From the NCBI GenBank assembly GCA_032622095.1, contig CP136064.1:264874165-264938164 (forward strand): a DNA stretch of 64,000 nt, written 5' to 3'. The translations under genes were made by a program, and so were the position numbers. Every line of letters begins with the position of its first letter. Within the stretch, counting starts at the first letter, position 1. The DNA comes from Siphonodentalium dalli (lineage: Eukaryota; Mollusca; Scaphopoda; Gadilida; Siphonodentaliidae). The notes below the pieces were generated by a model that saw only the letters and a list, made by a program, of their open reading frames with translations, did not search any database and was not told where the DNA came from. Of the stretch, positions 11,705 to 52,378 are shown piece by piece.

Positions 11705-14700
11705 TTAGGTGCTGTTCAATGTCTTCACGATTCTGCTAGAAAATAGCAAAAAATATGCTGTTTCAATGACTACATTGTCAATTGCTGGTGCCAACTCCAC
11801 TGGAATATGCACACAGGAGCCACCGAGGATAATCGCCATCAATTGTTGAAGCGACATGCTGTCCAGGAACATATACATTGGAATACCATATTTGTCAATA
11901 ATAAGGTTCCAATAATTATATCGCATCTGGATAATCGCATCCGAGCTACATGTCCAAATTACGTGCATCAATTCATTGTTGTATCTCGAACCACACTTAA
12001 GACACAGAACATTATTGTCATATGTAGTTTTATTGAGGAGTAAGGCCAGGTGTTTTAGTGCCACGGTGTGCGGACGATTTATACGCATTAATTCCCATAT
12101 GTTCCAGCTGTCCAGTGGATGCGGGTGACACTGTACCAACATAGCCAAGCTAGTCGTGGTACACGTAGAGTTGAACCACTCTGCACAATAGTTTTGTTCA
12201 ACGGCCTGGCGACTGTGTTTTTTCCAGATATCATCAGAAGGGAATATTCCGTTATCTAGGAAATCGGTGAGGAAATGTCTGAGGTTGTATCTGTCCAAGA
12301 TTCGAAAGATGTCAGCGACAAACCCGGAAAATATCCTACCGAATAAAGTATACTGGTATGTTTTGAATAGAAACAACCTGAGTGGAATTTGATGTCCAAT
12401 CGGCAGGTGGATTAGCTTCCCAAGAAAGGAGAGTTTTCTAATGTGAATTTCTCTTTCTATCGGCATCAACCCGAGGAGTCCCAAAGCGAGATGAGTTGGG
12501 GATCTGGTAGGCAGTGATTGGCTGTGCTTGACACATGTCCGATACGATCTCTCCAGTGTGAGTAGTGCGGATGCTTTGTCCATGGGAAACAACTCAGATC
12601 CATACATTGCTCGAGGAATAACTACGTTTTTCAAAAGTTTAGATAGCACAGACGGAGAACATGAATGCAGAATACGTTTGCCAGCTAGTCCGAAGTATGT
12701 GCTCCTCATTTTATGCGACATTTGCTTTGAGCGGATCGAGGTGATATCGAATTTTCCTTGAATTATGCCTAGGTGTGTGCATTCAGTAACCTATTCAATT
12801 GTGTGTTCTCCAAGTTTCCAGGTTCTTGAAATATCGTGTTGTCTTTCAGTTTCGTTAAATATAACGACTTTACTCTTTGTGTTAGAAAAATTGAAGCTCC
12901 ACTTCGTACTATATTCATGACATGTGGAGAGCATTTTGTCAAGACCAGCTTTAGTGAGTGAGATTATAGCGATGTCGTCTGTTGTTGTTGGGGCAGCACA
13001 TGTTATATTGAGAATAGTGAGACCTTCTGGTGAGTTGGCGAGTTGTTGAAGCAGTTCATTCACGTAGACCAGGTAGAAGAACGGGGAGCTTACGGCCCCC
13101 TGGCGGGTTCCTTGTGCGATTCGAATAGAGTTAGAAATATTTCCATTGCACACAACACGGCTACTGCAGTCTGCATGCATATCGCGGAAAATGCGCAACA
13201 GCTTTCCTCGAATTCCTAACTCATGGAGTTTGAATATAAGTCCTGCATGCCAGACGCGATCAAACGCCTTTTGAGAGTCCAAGTAACACACAAAAGCTCG
13301 AGATCCCATTTCCGATGCATAAGACACTGATTCCTGCATTATGAACGACGTCATCAAACAGCTCATATTCTTTTGGAAGCCGCTTTGAAGTTCATTGGGG
13401 AAATGTGATGTCACTGAACTAGAACTGACGCGGTTCATAAGAATTGCTTCAAGTATTTTGTACAAAACCGGAAGTAAAGTGATGGCACGGTAACTGTCAG
13501 GTAAATGCCGAGGTTTCGGGTCGCCCTTGAAGAAAGGTAATATGAGTCCAGTTTTCATATCTCGTGGTATGCTTTCTAGACTAAGAATGCCATTGTAAAA
13601 CGTACACAATAGATCAAGGAATGATTCAGGTGAGTGAAGCAAGTGTTCATTCACTATGTTGTCTATTCCACCAGCTTTGTTTCTGTTGAGGTGGCGAATA
13701 ACAGTGTTGATTTCCAATGCGGAAATAGGCTTGCACAAGAAAGAAGAGGAATAGTCTTGGTGCCCAGGATCTAGAATATCTCTCAACTGGTTATCTACAT
13801 GTTCTTCGAATGACGGCTCCTTGTGTGGAGATTTGGAATATAGATGAGAGAAGTAGTCCCTCCATCCCGAAAGAAGATCAAAGGGATCACGCACCATTTT
13901 ACCGTTGAATTCCATTTCCGACGTAGTTGCTTGTTTGGTGTTATCAGAATTGAGAAGCTTCCAGAAAGCTGTTTGGTCACGGATTGCAAAATTTTCAAGG
14001 TTATCACAAAGCTGTTGCTTCAGCTCACACGTTTCACGGCGTAGTACACGACGAAAGTTTCGCTTCGCATTCTTGTACATCATGTAAGTCGCCGATGCGG
14101 TGGAGTGTGACTTTCCGTCTTGAATCCATTTTTGTCGACAATCCATCGAATGATTACGAAGGAGACTCAGTTCTTCACTCCAGAATGGTTTGGCATATTT
14201 GACGAATTTCTTGCGCCCAACAGCGACATCCGCTGCGTTTAACAAAAGTTTGACAAGATCTTGATATAGGCGAGGCAGGTCTGCGATGCACGAAATTGGG
14301 CTGTTAAGCATCTGACAGTGTGAGTTTATAAATGAGTGATATTTTAAAACAGCGATGCGCTTCCAGTTGTAGAGTATCTTTCTGTGATGTTCGATTTCAG
14401 CCGTGTCGTTGTGGTAGTGTTTTGGTATTGTAAGCGAACATGTTACTGGGACATGACAAGACGTGTTGGTATGAGAGTCACTTAGTATTTGACATCGAAT
14501 GAGGAGGTCCTTGAATGAACATGGGATTACGATATGGTCCATCAGTGTTGGTGAGCCGACAGAACTGCAGGGAAAGAATGAGAATTGTCCACCTTCACAT
14601 TTCTCTGATAATGTTGTTGGTGTAGATTTCAGTCTTTCGAGGAATTCCGAGAACAACCGCCTGCGGACAGAATGGCCAGATGCTGGATTGTCAGATCGAG

Positions 14701-15172
14701 AGTCACCATAATGAACATTGAAATCACCAATGAGAACGACGTGTCCGTCATGTGCGTAGAAGTTTGTTACGTTCTCAAGCGACTCCAGTGTATCTTCGAA
14801 ATACGAGTCACTGTGACTTGTACTAGGTAGATAAACCTGTATAATGGTTAGGCGGAATCCAGCATTAAATGTAATCTGAACACCAATGAAACGTTGATTA
14901 TCGATGCTAATTGAGATACACAGTCTGAGCAACCTACGTTGGACAAGCAGGGCTACGCCATCCCTAGTGAAGCAGCCGCCCGTTTGAGTGCGAATCTCTC
15001 TGCCAGGTTTTGAAAAAGTCATATAATCGCCACATATCGATTCCAGGAAATGAAGATTGTTTTCGTTGAGCCAATGTTCAGAAAGGCCGATTACTCCATA
15101 TTGGCGAGAATTTATTATTTCACACAGATAGTCACTATTGGAGGTGACACCACTGTGTTCCAGGTAAGTATA
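11705..15172 (-). pseudogene. LINE ORF2: endonuclease and reverse transcriptase, one in-frame stop
   Basis: The frame is open from 15172 to 11705 (about 1155 codons) except for one TAG at 12791-12793. The diverged copy at 50-52 kb has a sense codon in this stretch, so the TAG looks like a single nonsense mutation. Order: APE-type endonuclease (about 15130-14400: Glu in GLSEHWL, GDFNVH, LMDHIV, NTSCHVPV); basic linker; RT (about 13710-12860: KAGGIDNIVNEHLL, LPDSYRAITLLPVLYKILEA, QSGFQKNMSC, FVCYLDSQKAFDRVWH, QGTRQGAVSSPF); then a C-terminal region with C-x2-C-x9-H-x4-C (CLKCGSRYNNELMHVIWTC). Two catalytic boxes are unusual: the RT YxDD box reads TTDD (12974-12985) and the endonuclease SDH reads SCH. 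No early ATG is seen; the first Met is at 15022, inside the endonuclease. The product would nick target DNA and copy the element RNA. Clade not assigned. Confidence 0.92.
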
Positions 15173-29110: not shown

Positions 29111-29733
29111 TTAACCTGGGCAACGCCGGGTAACACTGCTAGTTATACATATATTTTGTCCAGGAGAATGATTAATCATGACGGTACACGATAAACAACT
29201 CAATTAACATTCAATTAGTTTAAATGTTGTTAATGAAGGAGCGATCGAGTTATCCTGTTATTGTCATTTAGAAAGGAATATATTAGTAATATTATTGAAT
29301 AAAAAAGCTGGCGCAAAAGATTGCAACACAAATTTTGTCGGAAGACTGTTCTTTCGCTGCGATATTGTTAAGAGTGAAATTTGGCTGTGCACTGGTGTGC
29401 ACCGTCTTCTATTCCCGACACAAATTCAGGAAACATGAATATGTTATGGTCATATACCACTATAATAGTGGAATTCAGGATGTGCCTGACCTGATCAAGG
29501 TGGTGTTTGTTTGTTTTTATCCAAACCTCACTATATATACGACCATGGATCACAGCGAACCACCATGGCTCACCGGTATAAAAACCGCGAACCTATATAA
29601 TACAGGCAATGGGATTCTCACTGTAAATGTATTGGTCTACAATTTCCACAAGTTGTCATTCGCAGTCATTACAAGAAAACCATAGTCAGAAATGATAACG
29701 CCCTCAAGATCGTATTATTAGGCATATATATTA

Positions 29734-30112
29734 CTAGCCGATGAGCCCGACGTTGTCCGGGCTATTCAAAAACCAAATTTCAAGTCGATAGCTCCACCCG
29801 TTTCCGAAATCTGGTCTGCGCATGCGCGAAGCTGTCGTCGCACGGGCTCGGCGACCCGATACAATTCGTATCCGGGGCAAGATACATTCACATACCAAAT
29901 TTCAAGTCGATAGCTCCACCCGTTTCTGAGATCTCGTCTGCGCATGCGCGAAGCGGGCGCCGCACGGGCTCGCCAATACGACAACGTCCACCGCCTGGTC
30001 AAACTACAAACACGTACCAAGTTTCGTCCCGATCGGTCGAGAATCGTAGATTTGTATAAATGACAGACAAACAAACATACAGACAATAGAGGTCTTCAAA
30101 ATATATTTGAGA
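29734..30112 (-). mobile_element. non-autonomous Helitron, tandem copy 1 (two core repeats)
   Basis: Minus strand, 5' to 3': TCTCAAATATATTTTGAAGA, a TGTC/TTTG microsatellite, a conserved CTACGATTCTCGACCGATCG phrase, two ~122-bp core repeats, a terminal hairpin AGCCCG-GACAACGT-CGGGCT, CATCGG, CTAG. The base after CTAG is T (AATATA on the flank), and the 5' end abuts the CTAG of the next copy. These are Helitron boundary features. Each core repeat contains the palindromic TGCGCATGCGCG. Confidence 0.82.
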
Positions 30113-30683
30113 CTAGCCGATGAGCCCGACGTTGTCCGGGCTATTCAAAAACCAAATTTCAAGTCGATAGCTCCACCGTTTCCGAGATCTGGTCTGCGCA
30201 TGCGCGAAGCTGGCGTCGCACGGGCTCGGCGATCAGATAAAATTCGTATCCGGGGCAAGATACATTCACATAGCAAATTTCAAGTCGATAGCTCCACCCG
30301 TTTCCGAGATCTGGTCTGCGCATGCGCGAAGCTGGCGTCGCACGGGCTCGGCGACCCGATAAAATTCGTATCCGGGGCAAGATACATTCACATAGCAAAT
30401 TTCAAGTCGATAGCTCCACCCGTTTCCGAGATCTCGTCTGCGCATGCGCGAAGCTGGTGTCGCACGGGCTCGGCGACCCGATAAAATTCGTATTCGGGGC
30501 AAGATACATTCACATACCAAATTTCAAGTCGATAGCTCCACCCGTTTCTGAGATCTCGTATGCGCATGCGCTGCACGGGCGTCGCACGGGCTCGCCAATA
30601 CGACAACGACCACCGCCTGGTCAAACTACACACACGTACCAAGTTTCGTCCCGATCGGTCGAGAATCGTAGATTTGTATTAAT

Positions 30684-30717
<34 letters not shown>

Positions 30718-30740
30718 GGTCTTCAAAAATATATATGAGA
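30113..30740 (-). mobile_element. non-autonomous Helitron, tandem copy 2 (four core repeats)
   Basis: Same ends as copy 1. CAAATTTCAAGTCGATAGC starts at 30153, 30274, 30396 and 30518, giving four core units with a 121-122-bp period. It joins copy 1 as GGCTAG|TCTCA on the minus strand, with no base between the 3' CTAG of this copy and the 5' TC of the neighbour. The open frames on both strands arise from the repeat; 122 is not a multiple of three. Confidence 0.85.
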
Positions 30741-31291
30741 CTAGCCGATGAGCCCGACGTTGTCCGGGCTATTCAAAAACCAAATTTCAAGTCGATAGCT
30801 CTACCCAGCCCGACGATTTCAAGTCGATAGCTCTACCCGTTTTCCGAGATCTGGTCTGCGCATGCGCGAAGCTGGCGTCGCACGGGCTCGGCGACCCGAT
30901 AAAATTCGTATCCGGGGCAAGATACATTCACATAGCAAATTTCAAGTCGATAGCTCCACTCGTTTCCGAGATCTCGTCTGCGCATGCGCGAAGCTGGTGT
31001 CGCACGGGCTCGGCGACCCGATAAAATTCGTATCCGGGGCAAGATACATTCACATACCAAATTTCAAGTCGATAGCTCCACCCGTTTCCGAGATCTCGTC
31101 TGCGCATGCGCGAAGCGGGCGCCGCACGGGCTCTCCAATACGACAACGTTCACCGCCTGGTCAAACTACACACACGTACCAAGTTTGGTCCCGATCGGTC
31201 GAGAATCATAGATTTGTATTAATGACAGACAAACAAACAAACAAACAAACATACATACATACAGACAGAGGTCTTCAAAATATATATGAGA
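30741..31291 (-). mobile_element. non-autonomous Helitron, tandem copy 3 (three core repeats plus a partial)
   Basis: CTAG at 30741-30744 abuts copy 2. Core units start near 30781, 30938 and 31059, with a partial duplication (CAGCCCGACGATTTCAAGTC) at about 30808. A GACA/AACA/ATAC microsatellite lies at 31226-31268. The 5' TC on the minus strand is at 31291, and the next base outside (31292) reads A, completing a single A|T host site for the whole three-copy array. Confidence 0.85.
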
Positions 31292-49949: not shown

Positions 49950-52222
49950 TCAGGTGAGTGTGAGTGATCCATTTTTGAAAAGGGAGCACACATTCAGCAG
50001 ATAAGTAGCAGTATCGATTATCAGGTAATGTACATTATATACACAGCTGTGGTATATTGCGTTTGTGACACTTCCAAGAAAGAAAGACACGAGATCTGCA
50101 ATCGGGAGCGAATAAAGGAAGATGAATGTATTCACGCCATGGCGGTCGAATATCACATCCCAGAGGTGGTTACGCATGTTGGTCACAACCAAGGAAGAGC
50201 ACTCGAATGTGTGTATAATCTCGTTGTTGTATGTGTTCATACACATTTGGCACAGACTGTTGTTGTTGGGGTACGTAGTTTTGTTTAGTAGGCGGGCCAT
50301 GTTTTTGAGCTCAACAGATCTATGGCGATTAGCACCAAGCAGATACCAGACGTTCCAGCTTTCAAGTGGATCAGAGTGACATTTTGCGACGAAATGAAAG
50401 CACTGTTCGTTGTTGATAGAAAGAGACCAGTCTTTCCTATAAACTTTCCGAATTCTATCGTTCACGATTCGTTTCCATTCCTTTTTTCCAGAGAATATGC
50501 CAGTGTCCAAGAAGTTTGTTAGAAAGTGTAATATATTGTACCTTCCAAGAATCGCGAACACATCATTCACAAATCCCGTAACTGCACGACCATAAAGTAT
50601 ATGTCGATATACTTTACCCAAAAACAATTTCAATGCAACCTGATGGGTGGGTGGAAGATGGATGAGATTTCCAAGAAATTTCAGCTTTTTTATATGGATT
50701 TCCCTCTCAATATGCAGAACACCGACGAGGCCCAAGGCTACATTTGTCCGTGTGCGAGATGGGAGTTCTTGAATGCATGTGCTTCACACACGTTCTGAGT
50801 GATTTATCTCTCCATTGGATGGCACACGCATTATCGAGCGGCATGAGTTCTGAGCCAAACAGAGCTTTCGGAAGTGCGACTGTCTTGAGCAATTTGGATA
50901 CAACACAAGGAGAACTGTTCTTTGTGATCGTCTTTCCAGCAAAACCAAAGTATGTCTTGCGCAGTTTATCAGCCATTTGCGTTCCGCGTAGAGTGGATAT
51001 CGAGAATTTCCCTTGGAGAATCCCAAGATGGACGCATTCAGTGTCTTCTGTTAAGGTGTTAGAACCAAGCTTACACACTCTGTTAGATGAAGTGTACTGA
51101 CTGCGAGACTCGTTAAAAACAACAACCGACTCTTGCTACACGAGAACGTGAAACGCCATGTTACACTGTAGCGATAGCAGGACTGGTGTCTAGCATAATG
51201 TCCAGTTCTCGTTTGCTGAGTGAAATAACGGATATATCGTCGGCTGTTGTAAGGGCTGCACACGATACTCCATGAAGTACGAGACCCTCGTTTAGCGCAG
51301 ATAGTTCTTTCAGCAAGTCGTTTATGTAGGCGAGATATAGAAACGGCGAAGTTACAGGTCCTTGGCGGGTTCCTTGTGATATAGGAAAGCATCAGACACG
51401 CAGTTGTTGTGCAGTACACGCTTGCCGTGGATCACCAGTTTGCTAAGCTTAAGCAGAAGACCAGCGTGGCAAACTTTGTCGAAGGCCTTCTGGGAGTCAA
51501 GAAAACACACATAGGCATTCGATCCCATGTCAGATGCGTCAAATAGTGCTTCTTGTAGAATAAAGGAGGTAATTGTGCCGCCCACCCCTCTCTGAAATCC
51601 ATTCTGTTGTCCGCAAGGAAATTTATTTGTCAGAGAACTGCTGAGCAAACGGTTCAGGAGAACCCCCTCGAAGACTTTATATATAATCGAAAGGAGCGTT
51701 ATGGCCCTATAGCTATCTGGACTATCTGCAGGTTTAGGTTCTCCTTTGAATAGAGGGATGATTAAGTCCACTTTCATTGCCGGTGGAATGTGCTCCAGAG
51801 ACTGAATTCCATTGAAAAGAACACGAAGAGCACCCATTGTCGAATCTGGAGCTAACATCAAATGTTCGTTCACAATAATATTGTCGAGTCCTCCTGACTT
51901 GTTGCGCTTGAGTGATCGTATTACACCGTATATTTCGCTCATTGTTACTGGATGAGAAAGGTTGGACTCATTGTAGTGTTCGTGTGAAGTAAACAGTAAT
52001 GAATCAAGCTCTGACTGAACTTGATTTGCAAATATCGCAGACTCGTGTTGGTCCTCTGAGAACAGATCGGCGAAATATTTCATCCAACCCGACAAAATGT
52101 TTGAAGGATCCCGTTGAACACCAGCGCCGAAATTGATTGCCGTGGACGGTACTGATACATGAGTTTTGTTGGCATTGATAGCTTTCAGGAAGGAATTATT
52201 ATCGTGTTCTACGAATATCTTT
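49950..52222 (-). pseudogene. LINE copy 2, 5'-truncated and frameshifted (same family as 12-kb LINE)
   Basis: Starts within the linker (IFVEHDNNSFLKAINANKT at about 52222), next to a TTTAAAGGGGCAC motif. 52095-51352 is RT (LKRNKSGGLDNIIVNEHLML, SPDSYRAITLLSIIYKVFEG, NGFQRGVGG, YVCFLDSQKAFDKVCHAG). The catalytic box at about 51236-51247 reads TADD, again without the aromatic residue. 51078-50707 and 50735-49950 are the C-terminal region with CQMCMNTYNNEIIHTFEC (C-x2-C-x9-H-x3-C). At least two frameshifts, near 51400 and 50720. Protein similarity to copy 1 is clear but moderate, so these are separate old insertions or subfamilies. Confidence 0.9.
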
Positions 52223-52378
52223 AAAGGGGCACTTTGATTATTGCGATATAACCAAGATGCGGGCCCCGTTGGTTCAGAGTGCCCGGATGAAGATAATTAA
52301 TCGAGTGTGCTTCTCACAGTACGAGCTAACTGCATGGCCTCCTAATAGCTATAGCCTGATACCGGAGTACGATGCGTA

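Follow-up and report, generated by a model that had tools for sequence, protein, structure and literature searches.

Head-to-tail Helitron arrays in a scaphopod genome as probable stacks of separate insertions at resident left tips

The window, i.e. the whole 64-kb stretch of DNA analysed here, contains an array of three Helitron copies, designated units 1 to 3 from the 5′ end, which abut one another head to tail within a single A|T site. The element family of the window is termed family A; LTS and RTS denote its left and right ends, respectively. The array and its parts are located as follows:

29734..31291, minus strand: array of three abutting Helitron copies in one A|T site (motif and letter inspection)
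30741..31291, minus strand: unit 1, 5′-most, 551 bp, diagnostic haplotype AGAAGCTTCG
30113..30740, minus strand: unit 2, 628 bp, diagnostic haplotype AGGTATGCAG
29734..30112, minus strand: unit 3, 3′-most, 379 bp, diagnostic haplotype TGGAGCTTCG
31266..31291, minus strand: left end of unit 1, TCTCATATATATTTTGAAGACCTCTG, adjoining host A
30740..30741, minus strand: exact junction CTAG|TC between units 1 and 2
30112..30113, minus strand: exact junction CTAG|TC between units 2 and 3
30751..30770, minus strand: 3′ hairpin of unit 1, 6-bp stem and 8-nt loop (DNA fold)
30123..30142, minus strand: 3′ hairpin of unit 2
29744..29763, minus strand: 3′ hairpin of unit 3
29764..30594, minus strand: 122-bp core repeats of units 3 and 2 (a single Tandem Repeats Finder row spanning the junction)
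30816..31133, minus strand: 122-bp core repeats of unit 1 (Tandem Repeats Finder)
29714..29733, minus strand: host target side, TAATATATATGCC..., a T followed by TA alternation, like other host targets

Each unit is composed, in this order, of TCTCA, a GTCT/GTTT/GTAT microsatellite, a unique stretch, the 122-bp core repeats, the hairpin with its 6-bp stem, CATCGG and CTAG, and the 3′ terminus reads AGCCCGGACAACGTCGGGCT-CATCGG-CTAG in every window unit. The original prediction for this DNA, three Helitron-like elements joined exactly at CTAG|TC, was confirmed to the base: the copies abut without an extra base at 30740/30741 and 30112/30113, the proposed TCTCA start and the end made up of hairpin, CATCGG and CTAG recur in all three units, and a single A|T target serves the whole array, the minus-strand flanks being TATATTA|array|TAATATATATGCC with host A before and T after. 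The core-repeat numbers given there (3+, 4 and 2) agree with the counts of the core motifs GAGCTATCGACTTGAAAT (4, 4 and 2 in units 1, 2 and 3) and GCGCATGCGCA (3, 4 and 2). A motif scan of the whole window revealed no further copies of family A, its sole other match being an unrelated right-end look-alike at 14968 on the plus strand, and a tRNA scan returned no tRNA. Elsewhere in the window, reverse transcriptase open frames (RVT_1) of LINE-type retrotransposons are located at 12791-15172 and 51352-52296 on the minus strand, the former with an additional endonuclease domain, and a 20-bp repeat, CTATGGACAATACGTAATAA, forms together with its complement long arrays in both orientations at 283-2793.

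The window units are non-autonomous Helitrons of the canonical type with 122-bp core repeats. The 5′ TC and 3′ CTRR that define the class are present as TCTC...CTAG in three of three units, and the 3′ hairpin is located 6 nt upstream of CTAG; that of unit 1 folds as DNA with -6.4 kcal/mol (z -1.8), a value equalled in 13 of 200 shuffles. Judging from the flanking letters, insertion appears to occur between A and T without target duplication, as is typical of canonical Helitrons: the last base is A in 47 of 55 collected upstream flanks, with the remaining eight belonging mostly to decayed right ends, and the first base is T in 15 of 16 collected downstream targets. Membership in the Helentrons or HINEs, which would be marked by TT targets, was rejected, the targets here being A|T. 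RepHel genes are present in the host genome, as 151 matches to the Helitron_like_N domain were found among the scored candidates, many of them in open frames of 1,500-1,700 aa, compared to none in any of 14 control genomes. An A-like right end is situated near C1:13743912. Some Helitron_like_N matches are spaced along the same strand, at C2:141795020 and 141803591 (8.6 kb apart), at C6:36914596, 36925960 and 36934407 (about 8-11 kb) and at C9:50089810, 50115928 and 50140932 (25-26 kb), and these are perhaps autonomous Helitrons in tandem.

Ends and junctions were counted as exact patterns in the host genome (2,226,750,531 bases in 9 contigs), each with its reversed pattern as a control, which gave 0 for every pattern named here. 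The 24-mer of the A LTS occurs 15,966 times, the 16-mer of the A RTS 18,336 times (intact right ends), and the 23-mer of the left end of a second family, B, 9,371 times. The 23-base A-A junction CGGGCTCATCGGCTAG|TCTCATA was found 7,193 times (3529+3664), a number which is inflated by local duplication; since its reversed control is absent, the window junction is not a product of chance. Thus, 39% of the intact A right ends (7,193/18,336) lie exactly on an A tip, another 16% (2,901) exactly on a B tip, and more than half exactly on a Helitron left tip. Extrapolation from the window gives an estimate of 456 million A|T sites for the two strands together, from which it can be calculated that random choice would place about 0.6 of 18,336 insertions on the 15,966 A tips.

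Of the first 100 A RTS listed on C1, 22 are followed by an A tip, 30 by a B tip and 21 by a host-like T plus non-C, while 27 fall outside all exact classes; these 27 include variant tips in the fetched loci L030, L032, L041 and L066 and host targets in the fetched loci L051, L052, L057 and L059. Without the dense cluster at C1:13.75-13.79 Mb, the corresponding numbers are 21, 21, 17 and 19 of 78 (A tip, B tip, host-like, other). Among the first 100 listed A LTS, 21 have an exact junction, distributed over 13 of 60 clusters. Loci were sampled within the first 26 Mb of C1, the junction loci being the first 20 of the junction listing and the solo copies the first 20 singly listed left ends outside that sample. 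Nine of these 20 singly listed A copies end at host T, nine exactly on a B-type tip, and two were unplaced; at L063, L065 and L066, a different right end, GGGCTAACCTGCTAG, directly precedes the copy's own left tip. Solo copies with the same ends thus exist, so that the first condition named in the original prediction as refuting it, solo copies ending at other positions, does not apply. Dense clusters of same-strand Helitron ends, spaced by a few hundred to a few thousand bases, are present at C1:13.75-13.79 Mb and at C1:31.736-31.758 Mb.

The joining is confined to the tip itself. In the 11 bp that follow, the A LTS offers four further A|T steps, and a gap pattern, which requires intact words on both sides, detected no joins at these internal steps in the entire genome compared to 8,038 when set to the tip; on the fetched letters and the window the ratio is 0 to 114. 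Insertions slightly inside other ends do occur: at L023 a few bases inside a C-type end (TCTA|TACTATATA), at L075 as an A copy 11 bp inside another end, and some of the listed targets resemble ends of other families joined a few bases inside the tip. The target motif was derived from 76 of 100 listed texts, repeated and left-end-like ones being left out. Downstream of the A RTS, host targets consist of a T followed by TA/AT steps, which peak at +6 to +8 (91, 95 and 99%) and fall to 14% at +14; the first two positions are uninformative because the listing excluded C at +2. The 15 targets of the fetched loci agree with this TA-alternation motif, and upstream of the insertion the constraint lies mainly on the last three bases. 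The tips of A, B and C, TCTCATATATATTTT, TCTATTATATATTTT and TCTACTATATATTTT, contain the same TA run in the same register as the host targets, and only 0.6%, 0.08% and 1%, respectively, of the 13,104 A|T sites of the window score as well as these tips. An estimated 2.8 million or so genome sites score as well as the A tip, so that the motif alone predicts by arithmetic about 105 insertions on A tips compared to the 7,193 found (inflated as noted above), and further recognition beyond the motif must therefore be assumed.

For the composition of the arrays, the 20 stretches which best match a three-unit query, a sample biased to arrays, were divided into units by ungapped matching. Together with the window they contain 88 unit-to-unit junctions, 78 of the A-A type and 10 with B-type ends, and in a looser scan of 127 right ends, 84 proved to be followed by an A tip, 16 by a B tip and 7 by a C tip, while the remaining 20 include two altered A tips. 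Beyond the tip, B is unlike A in sequence. A before B was counted 2,901 times for 9,371 B LTS, and B before A 123 times for 15,966 A LTS; the latter is a lower bound that also includes local amplification, as B right ends vary and only the exact end CCACCTGCTAG was counted, so that the excess of A before B is only indicative of an order. At C1:188.850-188.869 Mb, the rare junction of B followed by A recurs on one strand at intervals of about 1.06-1.2 kb, which probably reflects a higher-order tandem array. Entry of new copies at the 5′ tip should make the units on the 3′ side the older ones. Leaving out the arrays of L009 and L025-L028, the last unit is more diverged than the first in 11 of 17 arrays (p 0.33), the mean tau within arrays is 0.12 (Wilcoxon p 0.51), and pairs stand at 66 to 39 in the expected direction (permutation p 0.028). 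The age gradient within arrays is thus weak, and the arrival order with older 3′ units is likely.

Whether neighbouring units are copies of one donor was assessed first by divergence. In the 20 stretches and the window (97 of 122 units kept after length and end filters), the mean difference is 4.8% between adjacent A units and 5.7% between A units of different loci, only 4 of 68 adjacent pairs being less than 1% apart; the nearest relative lies in another array for 66 of the 97 units, and many of the other 31 belong to locally duplicated arrays. The corresponding values for 31 adjacent pairs of the C1 sample and the window (29 from chromosome listings, 2 from the window) are 5.6% and 6.1%, with a single pair, the nearly identical one at L032, below 1%. 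The window units differ by 3.4-4.7% from one another and have their nearest relatives in the 97-unit sample at other loci. As an old burst would equalise all pair distances, divergence alone is no proof, and diagnostic haplotypes, comprising 10 sites with common family variants, were therefore compared as well. The three window units represent three such haplotypes, which are present in 3, 9 and 10 of 174 other units. With the loci L009 and L025-L028 left out, 7 of 79 adjacent pairs share their haplotype compared to 4.45% of random pairs, and the diagnostic mismatch is 0.373 for neighbours and 0.436 for shuffled partners, 0.55% of the shuffles being as low; the core-repeat count is equal in 25 of 65 adjacent pairs compared to 26% of random pairs. 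Neighbours are thus slightly, not strongly, related, and since their likeness exceeds that of shuffled partners, some of them share an origin.

These data bear on the explanation of such arrays as a rolling-circle concatemer, a head-to-tail multimer that is inserted after a donor has been copied repeatedly, either round a circle or by reading past the terminator. It would account for the exact CTAG|TC junctions within one A|T site, the same junction is carried by Helraiser circles (PMC4778049), rolling-circle transposition has been backed in the literature by reference to tandem arrays (PMC5876387), and the L032 pair as well as the slight excess of likeness between neighbours fit it. Descent from a single donor is nevertheless contradicted by the different haplotypes and core-repeat numbers of the three window units, by the low proportions of near-identical pairs (1 of 31) and of pairs sharing a haplotype (7 of 79), and by the at least 2,901 junctions between different families, for which a concatemer is refuted. 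On the haplotypes and the mixed families we reject it as the general origin of the arrays, and it is very unlikely for the one in the window. The suggestion in the original prediction that a single element was concatenated by rolling-circle replication is accordingly not supported for most sampled arrays, in which neighbours differ from each other almost as much as copies of separate loci do; its alternative, copies from different parents, was borne out by three haplotypes that are each found elsewhere in the genome.

Unequal crossing-over or another local duplication starting from one first copy or junction has clearly operated at some loci: near-identical sets of three units repeat with a 1,778-bp period in L009, and near-identical unit sets also repeat within L027, L028 and L025/L026. 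In L025 and L026, which lie about 1 Mb apart on C8 and comprise near-identical duplicated stretches, there are left ends in which the usual tip is preceded by one to three additional TCTTCTA units. We accept duplication as an addition at these loci and reject it as the sole cause of the window array, for which it is very improbable: it still requires a first junction, the window units are too far apart (3.4-4.7%), with differing haplotypes and closer relatives elsewhere, and many arrays of the C1 sample consist of just two unlike units. About equally improbable is the movement of a ready-made stack as a whole, by replication from the left end of unit 1 past two terminators to the last one, as has been proposed for maize Helitrons with several termini (PMC3288121). 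In its favour, L014 (C9:175814500-175823500) contains two facing stacks in opposite orientation about 204 bp apart, each composed of A copies followed by a B-type copy, which are 96.6% alike over 1,521 bp from the left tip and have unlike flanks; the same stretch holds a third, similar stack. Because the similarity of the B-type parts is no more than 86.5% over 690 bp, a joint move could have involved the A part at most, perhaps as a unit onto another B tip, and local duplication or conversion might also account for the likeness. Moreover, all junction-spanning matches of at least 700 bp to the window in the 20 fetched stretches reach at most 95.9%, and a stack must pre-exist in order to be moved. 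Least probable of all appears the integration of an excised circle, with CTAG|TC as its own junction, into a resident copy by homologous recombination, a process that would yield exact junctions and unlike, chimeric units. Such recombination of A into B predicts a unit with B-left and A-right ends followed by one with A-left and B-right ends, whereas the usual order is a whole A followed by B (mixed junction classes Aa-Bb 4, Aa-Ba 2, Ba-Aa 1, Ba-Bb 1, Bb-Aa 1), and the sequences of A and B differ beyond the tip.

Most probably, the window array is instead a stack of separate Helitron insertions, each placed exactly at the left tip of a resident copy, and most likely the arrays of this genome are mostly stacks of separate arrivals and not products of one element copied serially. 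Insertion at A|T would leave the host A beside the 5′ T of the element itself and thereby re-form an A|T target, and a second copy inserted there would produce CTAG|TC without an extra base. With its T, a few bases and the TATATAT run, the left tip seems to mimic a preferred host target in the same register, and a RepHel transposase may recognise and nick it like a target, causing the arrays to grow in the 5′ direction. Specifically, the enzyme of the newcomer, whose donor form may be circular, might nick the resident tip at A^TC, i.e. set its usual transposition-start nick, and then join the newcomer there, and local duplication of array segments would add to some arrays. The transposase of Helraiser, a relative, cuts the top strand between the flank and 5′-TC, inserts at A|T and forms circles in which CTAG is joined to TC (PMC4778049); by analogy, we count its cut site and its insertion at A|T as support for insertion at the tip. 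There is an even chance that the left end of a Helitron also acts as a homing site, with target and left end being read alike by the transposase and recognition comprising A^T, the downstream TATATA run and further left-end sequence. If so, resident Helitrons of several families would be among the strongest targets of the genome, and the ordered stacks, growing 5′-ward, would document the order in which the invasions took place.

Helitrons in tandem or next to one another have been described before, and stacking belongs to a known kind of event. Helraiser/Helibat, Xuan-Feng of wheat and Mothra of rice share the 5′ TC, the 3′ CTAG, the hairpin near the 3′ end and the A-T insertion with family A (PMC4778049, PMC13286980, PMC4683698), and Mothra is likewise non-autonomous with blocks of internal tandem repeats (PMC4683698). 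The distance from hairpin to CTAG is 6 nt in family A and 11 nt in Xuan-Feng (PMC13286980), and family A differs from these canonical Helitrons in that over half of its intact right ends abut the left tip of a Helitron exactly. The HINEs of oysters, which are of the Helentron type, have a GTCY-like microsatellite near the left end and central satellite-like tandem repeats as here, but prefer TT targets, whereas family A uses A|T and ends in CTAG (PMC7492417, PMC11136912).

Head-to-tail junctions and tandem arrays of plants and bats have been cited for rolling-circle transposition (PMC5876387), those of bat and silkworm have been ascribed to bypassed termination (PMC4067079), and for three tandem Helitrons of a fungus the choice between repeated insertion and rolling-circle replication was left undecided (PMC5148889). 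The plant, bat and silkworm arrays are head-to-tail as here and are ascribed to bypassed termination or to rolling-circle amplification of truncated copies (PMC5876387, PMC4067079, PMC12628747); in the arrays of family A, by contrast, both ends are kept, neighbours are unlike and families are often mixed. Distantly related Helitrons are directly adjacent in bat and maize (PMC4067079), and maize Helitrons favour insertion near or inside others, a nesting that can yield elements with several termini (PMC3288121). This neighbourhood preference, with families side by side, is shared by the genome studied here, in which the copies join exactly at the left tip, were counted genome-wide and have a target motif that matches the tip. 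For Drosophila, McGurk and Barbash (as told in PMC12628747) explained transposon dimers by a preference for certain insertion sites, a double insertion at a preferred site as here, although the example does not concern Helitrons and here the target would be re-formed at the tip after each insertion. In the accessible parts of the open-licence literature, a scope beyond which Yang and Bennetzen 2009, Xiong 2016 and McGurk and Barbash 2018 lie, no description of exact tip-targeting as the main source of arrays was found, nor any account of stacking with such exactness, of the proportion of copies it involves or of a resemblance between tip and target. Head-to-tail arrays are usually cited as a footprint of rolling-circle replication; in this genome, the same junction seems to result mostly from repeated insertion at a re-formed target, and CTAG|TC alone is therefore no proof of a concatemer. 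The common motif of tip and target suggests a single mode of recognition for donor end and target, which is testable in existing assays, and the ordered stacks might be used to date transposon invasions relative to one another and represent a route from transposon to satellite-like array.

Some junctions deviate from the usual form on the side of the right end. At L020 (3165), L036 (1209) and L053 (200), the right end lacks its final G and the junction reads CTA|TC, the next left tip being exact. At L020 (4134) and L027 (6931), copies without the hairpin end are joined exactly to a left tip all the same, one of the two ending at a new CTAG inside the core repeat.
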